Assembly (NCBI GenBank): GCA_021527695.1
Contig: JAKFAO010000011.1
Location: forward strand, 558,001 to 622,000
Length of the DNA stretch: 64,000 nt
Direction of reading: 5' to 3'
From: Naematelia aurantialba
Lineage: Eukaryota > Basidiomycota > Tremellomycetes > Tremellales > Naemateliaceae
Shown here one piece after another: positions 14,205-20,433 of the stretch; within the stretch, counting starts at the first letter, position 1, and the number at the start of each line of letters is the position of its first letter. Below the pieces are notes generated by a model. That model saw nothing but the letters and a program-made list of their open reading frames with translations. It did no database searches and had not been told where the DNA came from. Made by a program: the position numbers and the translations under genes.

Positions 14205-17200
14205 ATGCCACCGACCAGGATGTCAGCAAAGATCACTGGTGGGTACCTCTTCTCCTCTCCTCTCCTCTTCTGCCGTGTCCGTCACCGGCATGTCGATACA
14301 CCGCCCACACCAGCTGGCACCGCTGAGACGACGGTAGTATCCATAAAACATGCTGGCAAGACCCATCCCGTCGAGGTCGATCCGGCGCAGCCTGCATTGG
14401 CGTTCAAGGAGAGCATCTATGCCGTCACCGGGGTTCCTGTAGGTGCGTGATTCGTTCTTCATCTCGATCTCCGTCTGCCAACTTTCTGTCTTCCTCGTCG
14501 CTTCCAGCACTGGCAATCTCCTGTCCACCCCTCATCGTCTCCGTCCTCATCTTCTTGTCCACATGCCTCGTCTGCATCACGGCGATCTCCTGTCCGCCTT
14601 CCTCGTCTCTATCTGGCATCTCCCTGCCCCCCGTCCTCGTCCCACTAGCACCCGTCGCAAGGGCACACGACCAACTGATGTCCACAGATCGCATGAAAGT
14701 CATGGTCAAGGGTATTCTCAAGGTGAGATCGCAGAGCGCCGACATTACATGCCGACTTCGAGGCTTATGGCGCAGGACGACGCGGATATGTCCACACTTC
14801 GGCTGAAGCCTGTGAGTTGCTCGACTTGCCCGGGTAGCGTATCCTTACCTCTCCCACATATCACCCCTCATCTCTTCCTGTGTATCGACATCTTTCGATG
14901 CGAACGGCCATAGCTAACCCCAACGTAGAATCAAGCCATCACTGTGCGTGCTGAGAACAGGCTACCCTGTGGCTGATAGACTGACTGCCGACAGGTCATA
15001 GGATCGGCCGGACCACTCCCTGAAGCACCGCAAAAGCAGACTTTGTTCCGTCAGTCATTTGTCCAAGCGGCTCCGTGTACCGTAGGGAGTCTGCATGCCC
15101 CGGCCGCAGCGTTCATCTCCCTGTATCGTGTCAGACTGAGGGTCTGAGCTGACAAGATGGTAGTGGAAGATATGCCAGACTCGCAAGTCGCTCTCCTGGT
15201 GAGTAATCTACTACGTACCACCCTAACGGCGTGCCTGGGCTGACGACCAGCAGAGCGGCACACCTCCCGGATTGGTCAACCTCGGCCAGACGTGCTACCT
15301 CAATTCGAGCCTGCAAGTCCTCCGCGCCATACCCCAGCTCGGCGTTGCTTTGAATGGGTTCGTCGCATCCTTGCATCCCGCTCAAACTTCCCCCACTCCC
15401 CGCGTCCTTGCCCGGGAACTGATTCGCCGCTGTTAGAGAGATCTCTGCGCCGAGATCAGCAGAAGGTGTCCTAACTCAGTCGATGCACCATCTCTACGCG
15501 GGCATGTCGAAGACTACAGAAGCGGTGCCGCCATTCGTGCTTCTATCGTCTTTGAGGAGACTTGCGCCGCAGTTCTCAGAGACGGACTCGTCTGGGCGAC
15601 CGGCTCAGCAGGGTGAGTGAGGCATCAAGAGGGTCCAGTGGGCTTGAATTGGAATGAAGGTCTGGACTGGGATATGTGAAGACCCGAGCTGGGCCGTGGA
15701 GACTCGATGGCAGCGGCTTGGCGAACGGAGCGGTGCATGCGGGGATCTGGATTTTCTGGAAGAGAAACCAGATTCTTCTGTGCACATTGAACTTCCCGCC
15801 GTCTCTCGAAGGTCCCATGTCCTCGCACGTCTCCAAGCGATGCCGACACAAGCCTGACATGTATAGACGCCGACGAAGCCTGGACGCAAATCATCTCGGC
15901 GCTTCGAGCGTCCCTACCTGGCTTCATTGACGACCAGATGACAGTCGAGCTGACCACCACGTGAGCATCACCGATATTCCTCCTGTCCATGAAGCTCGAC
16001 GCGTGTGACTCGTGTGCTGACGATCTATTAGTTCGTCCTCTCCGGAGGCTCCCGACGAGCCACCGACGATCAACACTGATCGTGTCCTCAAACTCGAATG
16101 CAATATATCCATCTCTACCAACTTTCTCTTGTCCGGGATCCTTGACGTGAGCTCTATCCGTAGGAGGGAATTGAGCTGATCAGGCACAGAGCTTAGATCA
16201 ACAGATAGAGAAGACCAGTCCGACATTGGGACGGACAGCGACCTATTCACAGTGGGTGTGAGCCGCCGGGAACGCTGATGTACAGAAAATCACGGCTATC
16301 CCGCCTCCCTCAAATCTTGGTCGTTCATATGGTACGCACACGGTTGTCAAAGCTGACGGCAGGTCCGCTTCTACTGGCGCAGAGATATCCAGTGAGCCGA
16401 GTCGGGTGGCCTCGCTGAATGAGCAGGAAGAAAGCCAAGATCATGCGGAAAGTGAAATTCCCACTGCAGTTTGACGCGCTCGATCTCGTACGCCACGCTC
16501 CGACACCATACGGTCTGCTGAAGTAGGGCAGGTGACAGATGAGTTGCGGACACGCATCATGCCGGTCAACTCGGCGACGCGGCAGATTCTCAAGGACCGC
16601 GATGACCGCGCAAAGGTCGCCAAGCGGGACAAGGCGCGGCCAAAGGCAGAGGGAAAGAGCGAGGACGAGCTGAGGGGAGAGGAAGATGAGACGGTGCGGA
16701 ACCTGGTTGATACCAACGCGCTGCGGGCGGTGGGGACAAATCCTACCGGCGTGTATGAGCTCTGCGGTGAGTGATGGGAAAAGGCGGGGAATGAGATTGA
16801 GGATGCGACGTGAGACTTGGATTTGAGAATGCGACTTGAGAGCGGGACTGGACTTGAGAATGCGACTTGAGAACGGATTTGAGAATGACACTCGGGAGCG
16901 GGATTGGAGTTGAGAATGCGACTTGAGAACGGATTTGAGAATGACACTCGAGAGACTCGGGAAGACTTGAGACTGGACTGGGGACAGGCTTCAAAGAGAA
17001 ACCTATGAGCTAATCTGTCAGGCGTCGTGACGCACAAAGGGGCCTCGGCAGACTCTGGTACGTAGGCTTGGCGGCAGCAGACCCCTCGCTGACAGCGCAG
17101 GCCACTACATTGGTTGGGTGCGCAAAGAAGGGTCCCGAGAGCCTTCTGGAGAGGAGGAGTGGTACAAGTTTGATGGTGTGTCTCTCGGAGCGAGTAACGC

Positions 17201-17448
17201 TGACCAGCAGACGACAAGGTCTCCACTGTCACTGCGTGAGTCGCCGAACATCTGCAGCGCTGCCGCAAGTCGGCGCTGCACGAGGCGGCGCTGGCACAAG
17301 GTGGTGCTGGCACAAGGCGGCACTTGCACAATGCTGGCATGATCGTCAGGTATTCGAGGCTGACGGCTGGTTTAGCGATAGAATTCTGTCCATGGATGGC
17401 GGTAATGAGACTGCATATATATTGCTTTACCGGCCTGTAATATTGTAG
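14205..17448 (+). CDS. UBP6: UBP6/USP14-type deubiquitinase with an element-supplied C-terminus
   Basis: Proteasome-bound ubiquitin hydrolase that trims chains from substrates. An N-terminal ubiquitin-like domain (SIKHAGKTHPVEVDPAQP...FKESIYAVTGVPV...KVMVKGILK...LRLKP) is followed by the USP domain: Cys box NLGQTCYLNSSLQVLRAIPQL near 15280, and His box THKGASADS/GHYIGWVRKEG then EEWYKFDDDKVSTVT near 17030-17235. At least a dozen short introns. The last intron is 17236-17375 (branch GCTGAC, acceptor TTTAG), and the last exon 17376-17448 encodes DRILSMDGGNETAYILLYRPVIL in two parts: 17376-17402 is host sequence; 17403-17448 belongs to the inserted LINE (see mobile element). Start: ATG at 14205 or 14220, same frame. 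The protein looks intact despite the insertion, since AYILLYR is the usual final strand of this family. Confidence 0.85.
16790..16985. repeat. Intronic minisatellite in UBP6
   Basis: Repeated GAGAATGCGACTTGAGA and GGATTTGAGAATGACACTCG units within an intron of the UBP6 gene, between the exon ending ...GVYELCG and the exon starting VVTHKGA. Confidence 0.75.
17392..17402. repeat. Target-site duplication, UBP6-side copy
   Basis: ATGGATGGCGG, identical to 19659-19669. The bases on each side differ between the two copies (CTGTCC before and TAATGA after here; GGCGAG before and GGAGAA after there), so the repeat is exactly 11 bp. It encodes Met-Asp-Gly and the first two bases of a Gly codon of UBP6. 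Confidence 0.85.
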
Positions 17449-19658
17449 AAGAAAGGGAAGTAACTATGAAAGTATACGTCAGTCCTCGTCTCCAGTGTCC
17501 ATTAGCTCCCTCTGAACGTTCTGCCCCTCGCTCTTGCAAGAGCGGTCGAGATGGCTGTCTTCATGGCGTCGTGTTGGGATGTTGGTATACCTTTCTTCCT
17601 CCATGTCCTCAGCTTCTCACAGGTCTGTTCCTCCATCAGGCCTCCCGTCGAAAAGATTAAAGGGAAGAAATTGGTGTTGGGGTCACGTTCGATGGGGAGT
17701 TTGTTCGCCTTGCGAGTTGCGTGGCTGGTGAGAGTGCGCGCTAGCCGGGTTTGAGTGTCTTCCCAGGGGGGAAGGTTTCGGGGCGGTGGAAGATGACGCG
17801 CGAGGTCTTGCCTTGTGTTGATGGCAAAGAGGGACATGACCTTGACATCGAATTCCTCCGGTTGAAAGGGGGGATCGTCGAGAGTGGACTCGATTCGTAT
17901 GTCATTCCTACGATCGCGTGTGTTGTTGATGAAAGGCTCGATTGTCACACGGGTGTCTGGCATCGTGCGCAAGGCTTCTGCCAGTCGGTATTTCACGGAA
18001 TCGTGCCGTTTCGTCTCGTATGTGTTTCGGCCGTGACAGATCTCGTCGTGACCCAGTTGATTCTGCATCGCGCAGCGGTCGCAGACGCCGCTGTGGCCGG
18101 GGATGAGGGTCCGGTAGTGCAGGTTGGCCATGATTGTCGAGTCGTTGAGCATAAAGCGTGCGGCCGATGGGAGAGCGTCGAGCCAGCGGCGTCCCAGGGA
18201 TGATCCGGCTTCAGTCATTGCTACTCGTTCGGTGAGGGTCAGGGAGGCGAAGAGTTCTTGGTGTTTGGTGTTATTTGCTTCCTGACATCTCTCCTTCTGG
18301 GAGCGTTTGTCCGAGTCTGGTTCAAGCTCCGGGACGAGCTGGGAGAGCACCCTGTCTGACAGGGCCGCGGCCGCGTCGTAGGCGTGGGAGTGGGCGGCCA
18401 TGTATGAGGTGAGGCCCATGCCGCCAAGGGAGGTGGGGAGGGAGATGATGAGGCGGTCCTTTGCCGTGTTCTCGGGTGAAGGCCCGCAGGACCGTATGGC
18501 ATCGAAAGTGGAGAGCAGAGTGGCATCGAGGCGGGACCAGAGGTCAGTCAGGTCGTTGGATGGTAAGGAGCGGAGTAGGTGGTGGAGGTTGAGCTGAAGG
18601 GATCTGCGGAGGATGATGAGGGCGTCTTGTTTGGGGAGGGGCGTGAGGAGGTGTAGCTTTGATTCGAGGTCGTCGATCTTGTCCGCCAAGAACACACGTC
18701 GTGCGGTTTCGGATCCTAGGCAGGTACCAAGGATTGGGATGGAGAGGTTCGGTTCATCAAGGTCATAAGACTTGCATTTGATGTGATTGAGCTTGAGGGG
18801 TGAGCCGGGTTGTGCGAAGAAGTCGAGGCATGTGCGCAAAGCGTCCTGCGAGTCGTCGTCGGGGCAGAGAATGAAGATGTCATCGAGGTAGGCGAGGACA
18901 AGGTACCGGGGTCCGAGGAGTTGCTGCAGATCCTCGATCAGGTCTTTTATTGCGATGGAGAAAAGGAGAGGTCCCATTGGGTCGCCTTGGCGGACTCCCT
19001 GAGAGGAGTTGATGGTGATGCTGATGCCGTCCGAATGGACAATGAGGGGGGTGGAGGCATTATGGGCCCACGAGGCGGCGCGGGCGAGATGGGGTGCATG
19101 TTTGATGAGGGCACGGCTGAGGAAAGAGCGGCTGAGATCATTGAAGCTGTTCACGGTGTCGAGGCAGATGAGACGGGAGTAGGGGAAGGCTGGATGTTTG
19201 TTGATGGAGTGAAGGACGGCTCGTACTATCGGCTCGCTGCCTCCCGGAGTCTTGACGCCGAATTGGTTGGGGGAGAGGAGCTCGGGCCTGAAATTGGAGT
19301 TGAAGATGGCTTTCATGGCGATGCGGTAGAACAGCTCGCCAATGGCAATTGGGCGGATGCCGTTGTCCGGTTTGAGGAGGGGGGTGAGGCGGGCGGTGCA
19401 TAGGAGGGTCTGGCCTGGGGCGATGCCGGCTGCCACCTGGGCTGTGAGGTTTGTGAGGAAGTCGGTAAATGCTGGCGCTCGAAGGGCAATTTTGGCCAGT
19501 TGGGCAGACCATCCAGAGGGGCCAGGGGAGGTATCGTTGGCCAGGGAGGTGACGACTGCGGAGATCTCGTCGGCGGTGGAGAGAGTTGCTCGGGAGAGGG
19601 CGGGGGGAAGAGGATTGTTGAACGGGTTTGCCTCTCCTTGAGGGTGTTTGCTGGCGAG
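17403..19658 (-). mobile_element. 5'-truncated RLE-class LINE inserted in the last exon of UBP6
   Basis: A 2,256-bp non-LTR retrotransposon in antisense to UBP6, bounded by an exact 11-bp direct repeat. Its 3' end faces the UBP6 coding region. Reading the + strand from 17403, the element's terminal 46 bases complete a Gly codon and encode NETAYILLYRPVIL then TAG. This replaces the tail that was pushed beyond the element's 5' end (19659-19745). The 3' untranslated part between the element's own stop (17502) and this recoded tail is only about 53 bases, with no poly(A). The 5' end cuts into the protein just upstream of the RT domain, as expected of incomplete target-primed reverse transcription. 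Endonuclease type (restriction-like) places it near the CRE/R2 group, whose members are site-specific. The target-repair reading is inference from the sequence. Confidence 0.8.
17502..19658 (-). CDS. LINE reverse transcriptase / restriction-like endonuclease (5'-truncated)
   Basis: About 718 codons belong to the element; the frame continues 19 more codons into antisense UBP6 tail, which are not element sequence. RT blocks in order: SPGPSGWSAQLAKIAL, LTPLLKPDNGIRPIAIGELFY, LICLDTVNSFND, SSQGVRQGDPMGPLLFS, and YLDDIF (near 18876-18893) in place of the commoner YADD. The C-terminal part has a Cys/His knuckle (CDRCAMQNQLGHDEICHG, near 18045-18105), then KRHDSVKYRLAEAL, RRNDIRI and EEFDVKVMSLF. 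This is the RHD...(P/N)D...D-x-K order of restriction-like endonucleases in R2/CRE elements. The frame is open with no stop, so the insertion is young. The N-terminal DNA-binding fingers expected of the family are missing by truncation, so this copy is probably not autonomous. Confidence 0.82.
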   Translation of the reverse strand, partial: LASKHPQGEANPFNNPLPPALSRATLSTADEISAVVTSLANDTSPGPSGWSAQLAKIALRAPAFTDFLTNLTAQVAAGIAPGQTLLCTARLTPLLKPDNGIRPIAIGELFYRIAMKAIFNSNFRPELLSPNQFGVKTPGGSEPIVRAVLHSINKHPAFPYSRLICLDTVNSFNDLSRSFLSRALIKHAPHLARAASWAHNASTPLIVHSDGISITINSSQGVRQGDPMGPLLFSIAIKDLIEDLQQLLGPRYLVLAYLDDIFILCPDDDSQDALRTCLDFFAQPGSPLKLNHIKCKSYDLDEPNLSIPILGTCLGSETARRVFLADKIDDLESKLHLLTPLPKQDALIILRRSLQLNLHHLLRSLPSNDLTDLWSRLDATLLSTFDAIRSCGPSPENTAKDRLIISLPTSLGGMGLTSYMAAHSHAYDAAAALSDRVLSQLVPELEPDSDKRSQKERCQEANNTKHQELFASLTLTERVAMTEAGSSLGRRWLDALPSAARFMLNDSTIMANLHYRTLIPGHSGVCDRCAMQNQLGHDEICHGRNTYETKRHDSVKYRLAEALRTMPDTRVTIEPFINNTRDRRNDIRIESTLDDPPFQPEEFDVKVMSLFAINTRQDLARHLPPPRNLPPWEDTQTRLARTLTSHATRKANKLPIERDPNTNFFPLIFSTGGLMEEQTCEKLRTWRKKGIPTSQHDAMKTAISTALARARGRTFRGS

Positions 19659-19669
19659 ATGGATGGCGG
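19659..19669. repeat. Target-site duplication, far copy
   Basis: Second copy of ATGGATGGCGG, at the 5' junction of the LINE. It is continuous with the displaced UBP6 tail. Confidence 0.85.
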
Positions 19670-19745
19670 GGGAGAAGATTCTGTCGCCTACATCCTGCTG
19701 TACCGGTACGTCCACGTCGCTCAGAGAGAACGAGGGTGCCGCTGA
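19659..19745 (+). pseudogene. Displaced original C-terminal codons of UBP6
   Basis: In the UBP6 frame this stretch reads MDGGGEDSVAYILLYRYV, then ten more residues and TGA at 19743-19745. Joined in thought to the host exon ending at 17402, it continues the UBP6 frame without a break, so it is the pre-insertion tail. It now lacks promoter, upstream exons and splice acceptor. Compared with the element-supplied tail, AYILLYR is identical in protein but uses different codons for five of the seven residues (Ala GCC/GCA, Tyr TAC/TAT, Ile ATC/ATA, Leu CTG/TTG, Leu CTG/CTT). Confidence 0.8.
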
Positions 19746-20433
19746 GGGCTCAGACCGGCTACGGAGGTGTAAGCGGCCGTACGATGCGGTGTGTGCATGG
19801 ATGGACCGCGTTATAATACCCTGCGTGCTGCGCCGTTGCTCCGATTCACACGCTCATGCATGTCGTGGAACGATACTGTCCTGGCGGTTGTCTAGCGGCA
19901 GTGTGCGTTCGTGACTGGTACACGGTGGTGTGCATGCGTGCTGTCACACCAACGGGCTGTGCTTGCGTGTTCTTCACGACTGAATGTCTGATTGTCTTTA
20001 CACGGCACGGCTGTGTATGCGTGACGGTCTTCACACGGCATATGTGTGACTGTGTGACTCGCACCACACGATAGCGCATGCGTGACTGTTGTTCTACGAG
20101 GTCGAATTGTGACTGTTGTTCAACGACAAGGACAATGACGCCAGTCGAAGACTTGAAACGCGCGTGCTGCCAAGTACGCGGCGCCGTTTTGTCCCTTTTG
20201 GGCATATCCAACCCCGTTTCATCCCCGCCCTTGGCAGCATTGTCACCACCGCGCCCCAAACGTGGACGTATGCTGCTCTATTGTGCTGACCAATACATGC
20301 GGCTGGAGAACAATCAGTGACGGTAGGGTGAAACGGTGGTAGTGCGAGAATCGCAAGACTCGCCACTGGGGAATGCGGACACAGGTAGGTACTGTAGGAA
20401 GGTGCCTGGGAGATTTCCCGGTAAAATTCCGCT
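19746..20433. other. Intergenic region with decayed CACACGG / GTGACTG repeats
   Basis: Between the UBP6 remnant and the pheromone promoter. Imperfect repeats such as GCGTGACTGTTGTTC and TTCACACGGC occur at 19900-20130. No gene is supported on either strand. Confidence 0.5.

Follow-up and report, generated by a model that had tools for sequence, protein, structure and literature searches.

A LINE in the UBP6 gene of Naematelia that very probably carries a replacement for the gene end it displaces

Results

An R2-type LINE interrupts the last exon of UBP6

The window analysed here is a stretch of 64,000 nucleotides from the edible jelly fungus Naematelia aurantialba (C3:558001-622000), and positions refer to it unless a contig is named. 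The genome searched comprises 20,997,016 bases on 15 contigs of one strain. It corresponds to the assembly published for Naematelia NX-20, a strain isolated from a single spore, for which PacBio and Illumina sequencing were combined and which appeared under the name Naematelia aurantialba (PMC8777972); a table in a later paper places NX-20 beside N. sinensis strains (PMC13085929). The published total given in these sources, 20,998,359 bases, is slightly above the number searched (PMC8777972, PMC13085929).

The UBP6/USP14 host gene lies on the plus strand (14328..17402), its spliced exons running from the ubiquitin-like domain to ...DRILSMDGG, where 14328 marks the approximate start, that of the stitched protein. 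This protein is 83% identical over 99% to the UBP6 of N. encephala and is homologous to the solved structures of USP14 and Ubp6 in the PDB. In agreement with the original prediction of a single-copy host gene, UBP6 was found once in the genome: a protein search of the 15 contigs gave 11 places, eight of which are exons of the C3 locus, and the remaining three matches, on C2, C10 and C15, show 32-40% identity with E-values of 1.6e-5 to 9.8e-4. The last intron before the insertion, located by eye, is of the GT-AG type (17236..17375, plus strand, GTGAGT...TTTAG). The last exon as now read (17376..17448, plus strand) encodes DRILSMDGG and then, from 17403, NETAYILLYRPVIL followed by a stop. Another intron, at 16767-17021 (~255 nt), consists mostly of GACTTGAGAATG-like repeats and is the longest among seven introns located by eye.

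From 17403 to 19658 the gene is interrupted by a 5'-truncated R2-type LINE of 2,256 bp, which lies on the minus strand and is antisense to UBP6. It is flanked by an 11-bp target-site duplication, ATGGATGGCGG, with the first copy at 17392..17402 and the second at 19659..19669 (both plus strand), identical at 11/11 positions. Both the antisense disruption of the last exon and the exact second copy of the target had been proposed, and the minus-strand reverse transcriptase (RT) frame and the flanking repeats bear this out. The frame (17502..19658, minus strand) has 718 open codons and a stop at 17502-17504, about 100 bp from the 3' end of the element, and covers the RT, a candidate C-terminal zinc knuckle and a candidate endonuclease-like region without the N-terminal part. 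As read from the sequence, the remaining 3' UTR occupies 17449..17501 (minus strand).

Among PDB entries the RT is closest to R2 proteins (9nl3, E 6.5e-12; 9dou, 9.5e-12; 9nl2, 5.3e-9), with matches to LINE-1 ORF2 at 8e-4 or weaker, and it matches Pfam RVT_1 with an E-value of 1.9e-16. Residues C527, C530, H538 and C542, R552 and H553, D587, E602 and D605 are invariant across eight aligned sequences including the query; we take them to form a candidate CCHC knuckle and a candidate PD-(D/E)XK-like endonuclease. The N-terminal zinc finger/Myb region is absent from this copy, and relatives have upstream cysteine/histidine motifs (by eye). We regard the element as 5'-truncated because relatives have longer frames (up to 1,483 aa) and the match begins at its 5' edge.

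The UBP6 element is present as one copy in the NX-20 genome. A DNA search with it gave five places, namely itself and four stretches that are 64-67% identical, and the 3' end found no second match anywhere in the 20,997,016 bases. Protein relatives of the RT amounted to 133 matches, and the best among the 120 listed, which include Kwoniella shandongensis and metagenomes, reaches 49% identity. No relative occurred among 25 pattern matches in viral_contigs; among 82 in genome_contigs there was one, 33% identical and from a bacterial MAG.

The element-borne and the native gene end encode the same conserved strand

The element-borne tail (17403..17448, plus strand) completes the codon GGT and continues with NETAYILLYRPVIL and TAG; these codons are the antisense of the 3' terminus of the element. 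Past the other end of the LINE the native tail reads GGGEDSVAYILLYR. Its exon GEDSVAYILLY(R) (19670..19705, plus strand), now cut off from the gene, follows the second target copy in frame, so that after GG the sequence reads GEDSVAYILLYR. The original prediction had let this native tail run on in the same frame beyond LYR. The frame stands, but the codons of 'YV' fit better as the 5' splice site (GTACGT) of a predicted 48-nt last intron (19706..19753, plus strand, GTACGT...CTCAG), after which come the last codons (R)PATEV and the stop TAA (19754..19772, plus strand). This intron is backed by the sister species N. encephala, in which the UBP6 end is uninterrupted (AYILLYRPAVSV / MDGGGEDSVAYILLYRPAVSV, tail RPAVSV) and should represent the expected look of the intact gene. 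With the predicted splicing, the native ...AYILLYR-PATEV-stop resembles the N. encephala end AYILLYRPAVSV.

Over AYILLYR the host codons are GCC TAC ATC CTG CTG TAC CGG and those of the element GCA TAT ATA TTG CTT TAC CGG. The two differ at 5/21 nucleotides (24%) and all five differences are synonymous, a result that rests on seven codons and five changes. All five are towards A or T, the element stretch having 36% GC versus 58% in the native tail, and composition bias may have a share in the synonymous-only pattern. Outside this strand the tails diverge: the element tail has a three-residue NET loop and ends in a stop of its own, it lacks an intron where the native one is predicted, and past AYILLYR only the next residue, P, is common to both.

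To place these features in the enzyme family we read 135 UBP6 homologs, made up of the best 120 of 1,748 matches and 15 from a search that scored only the UBP6 end with the element-type tail. AYILLYR is present in 85 and GGG[EQ] in all 135. In line with the earlier view, AYILLYR is the conserved end of the family, as in N. encephala. The loop before AYxLxY has five residues in 134 of the 135 homologs and three residues in none, one sequence (P0135) being unparsed. The end-scored search returned 46 proteins, 31 of them already in the homolog list, and the three-residue loop occurred in 0 of the 15 others. P0135, the UBP6 of Cryptococcus depauperatus, has the annotated end GGGEDSVAAANIL in place of AYILLYR, which is either a gene-model error or another altered end.

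Related LINEs in the same genome lie at 5S and U2 genes

A genome search with the RT gave 15 places including the UBP6 element. Two nearly identical LINEs, at C1:1906371 and C8:1615256, have each cut a 5S rRNA gene in two at TCTGCGC, the 5' half of the gene standing before and the 3' half after the element. For a third (C14a), the 3' half of 5S follows downstream, again at this position, and a fourth (C14b), which is followed by C14a in tandem, has the 3' terminus of the 5S elements. All four 5S-linked LINEs (C1:1906371, C8:1615256, C14:511518 and C14:515644) end in ACATGTATCTAA[AC]TCTGCGC. Where both flanks are 5S sequence, the repeats measure 13 bp on C8 and 8 bp on C1 (the latter by eye), similar in size to the duplication in UBP6. 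At the 5' junction of the C8 element there is a small duplication of a 5S segment. With 47 of 1,254 candidates scored, the 5S search found at least nine genes above the cut-off, and one more fell short of it.

The 5S elements are the closest in-genome relatives of the UBP6 element and are without a restoring tail. In a midpoint-rooted RT tree of 39 rows (nine from NX-20 and 30 of the best 120 of the 133 protein relatives, with target labels assigned by us), the UBP6 element pairs with C14a at a support (91/85) under the starred level; the four 5S elements all belong to the surrounding clade of 21 rows (100/100).

Scoring of 45 of 155 U2 candidates yielded a single U2 snRNA gene, which is followed by a tandem pair of more distant LINEs (C9a and C9b, C9:1981968-1988941). 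The U2 gene is whole, and a 125-nt stretch that starts near U2 nt 67 and extends slightly beyond the end of U2 recurs after each LINE (125/125 identical for C9a, 123/125 for C9b). On C4 (C4:971375-973423), a LINE whose open frame has 1,483 aa splits exon 2 of a sugar-transporter gene and restores nothing. Within one genome there are therefore three outcomes, namely the splitting of one of many genes (5S), a long duplication (U2) and a carried tail (UBP6), with the plain disruption on C4 as a fourth.

Other apparent cases of element-carried gene pieces were rejected. The C4 element does not carry the piece IMEGFD of the sugar transporter, which resumes at VLLSNFY past the 5' end of the element; the C9 3' flank is U2 snRNA sequence and not a gene start; and the gene start considered for the C1 3' flank lies in the neighbouring gene beyond the 5S. 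The 5' end of the C4 LINE has about 11 copies of a 15-bp TTTGTACATTTCGCC repeat. Arrays that are possibly microsatellite targets come after two further LINEs, (ACTTTT)n on C15 and (ACTCTTC)n on C13.

Origin of the replacement tail

The insertion looks young because the target-site duplications are identical, the native tail keeps the consensus, the predicted splice sites and the stop, and the RT frame is open; judged from these features, a young age has good support. When neutral divergence was simulated with substitutions only, the RT frame stayed free of stops in 2 of 1,000 runs at 12% per copy (P 0.002) and in 331 of 1,000 at 2% per copy. The divergence between the tails would thus predate the insertion, which suggests that the tail came with the element. 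The element tail is also not a fresh copy of the UBP6 locus, since it is without the predicted native intron and has the three-residue NET loop. A ready-made tail on the element, as originally proposed, is therefore very probable. Five random changes would keep the peptide at a frequency between 0.0006 (no transition bias) and 0.002 (biased; 200,000 simulations each), and there is good support for inferring that selection on the protein sequence maintained the tail while the element carried it.

The reading that we favour, with a probability of roughly 0.7, is that of a site-specific R2-type LINE which uses UBP6 as its target and, in a gene-restoring and homing-like manner, brings along a replacement tail. 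The endonuclease of the element would nick UBP6 at the MDGG codons, and the UBP6 sense strand, ending in ...ATGGATGGCGG-3'OH, would serve as primer for reverse transcription of the element RNA. The part copied first would be the 3' end of the element, the complement of the short coding sequence. With a cDNA that is UBP6-sense from its first base, a coding tail would have to be the complement of the RNA 3' end, which is the arrangement observed. The host gene would then read on into NETAYILLYRPVIL and the stop, replacing the lost AYILLYR strand and the C-terminus. Priming should gain nothing from homology past the nick, so that annealing needs explain the synonymous-only change poorly, while selection on the protein end does explain it.

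The host gene probably survives such an insertion and the hybrid enzyme would work; the shorter NET loop may impair it. The position of its relatives in 5S genes suggests that the element selects the UBP6 site, and it may hit this site regularly and, in crosses, pass from one UBP6 allele to another as homing elements do. As this single-spore strain has one UBP6 and its one copy of the element is truncated, the source would be in other strains, lost or unassembled, which fits homing. A more far-reaching version, to which we give even odds, is that an R2-type lineage moved from the 5S genes to a conserved protein gene present as a single copy, where it persists by means of an evolved, intron-free coding surrogate for the last strand of that gene, as a retrotransposon homing element with one locus per haploid genome that spares the gene it occupies.

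Alternatively, the tail could be a one-off passenger: an ancestral element, antisense in a UBP6 gene of this or a different lineage, would have captured the UBP6 end by read-through and later landed in UBP6 via homology, with the rescue as a by-product. Read-through at the 3' end is common among LINEs, the genome has only one copy of the element and its relatives are without such a tail. Nevertheless, we consider this unlikely, since the missing intron at the predicted place, the recoded AYILLYR, the own stop and a three-residue loop seen in 0/135 homologs indicate that the tail, once captured, was altered with its protein end preserved.

Another alternative, in which this insertion itself produced a long target-site duplication (~60 bp or more) and the tail is one of its arms, diverged since, is distinctly improbable. 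The geometry would fit, and the LINEs at U2 in this genome show a duplication of ~125 bp. However, a 24% difference in the AYILLYR codons is at odds with 11/11 identical target copies, a whole native tail and an open RT frame, and a genomic duplicate should be nearly identical and include both the GEDSV loop and the 48 nt of the predicted intron. The relatives on C1 and C8 at 5S, moreover, have repeats of only 8 and 13 bp.

Coincidence or an assembly error is very improbable, even though the evidence comes from a single genome and its assembly sequence. The degenerate codon pattern for uninterrupted AYILLYR has two matches in the 20,997,016 bases, one at each end of the element, and the reversed control pattern has none in the same bases. 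When the 3' end was shuffled base by base, 3 of 20,000 shuffles reached even 5/7 matching residues near the same place. These counts reject chance as the reason why the 3' end of the element completes UBP6 in frame after DRILSMDGG, as the original prediction had recognized. The target-site duplications are clean, and PacBio was combined with Illumina in the published assembly (PMC8777972, PMC13085929).

Removal of the element as an intron (donor G|GTAATG at 17402, acceptor ...GGGGGAG at 19674), giving MDGEDSVAYILLYRPATEV with the native tail still in use, works in frame but is hardly credible, as it would take 2,273 nt versus 35-255 nt for seven other introns (by eye) and a weak acceptor, and would leave the AYILLYR and stop of the element unexplained.

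Discussion

LINE families with a restriction-like endonuclease are R2, R4, NeSL, HERO and CRE. R2 itself interrupts a single 28S gene among many and is not known to repair it, and to our knowledge a site-specific LINE is commonly assumed to depend on targets that are multicopy or dispensable. The UBP6 element resembles the R2 group in its RT, which is closest to R2 among solved structures, in its short target-site duplication and in having in-genome relatives at one 5S position. It differs in having a protein gene as target, one that was found a single time in the genome and for which it supplies a coding tail.

Integrative elements that target tRNA genes, and integrases acting at protein-gene attachment sites, replace the lost end of the host gene with an end of the element. 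Likewise, the end of the UBP6 element adds conserved sequence, in frame, to complete the gene that it disrupts; those DNA elements, however, rely on an integrase and DNA recombination, whereas the LINE would use target-primed reverse transcription. Homing elements such as inteins and group I/II introns occupy one conserved site, leave a functional host gene and spread between alleles, and we propose the same three properties for the UBP6 LINE. In contrast to these elements, which are removed from RNA or protein, the LINE stays and donates sequence.

Rotifer R9 reportedly has an RNA-gene target and an exceptionally long target duplication, comparable to the long duplication by which the U2-linked LINEs described here leave U2 intact. 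Utopia and Keno are U2 snRNA LINEs, with target-site duplications of 0 or 20 bp in Utopia, and the passages of PMC4640811 on these families describe no element-encoded gene tail. They have an RNA-gene target in common with the U2-linked LINEs of the present genome. In keeping with the original prediction, we found no LINE of the gene-restoring sort described in the open-access PMC literature, subscription papers being outside this scope.

If the proposed reading is true, a LINE equipped with a replacement gene end could exploit single-copy conserved genes in a homing-like manner, and the end of a retroelement would be under selection for the protein sequence of its host. It would also suggest a design, taken from nature, by which RNA-templated insertion into a protein gene could leave that gene preserved.
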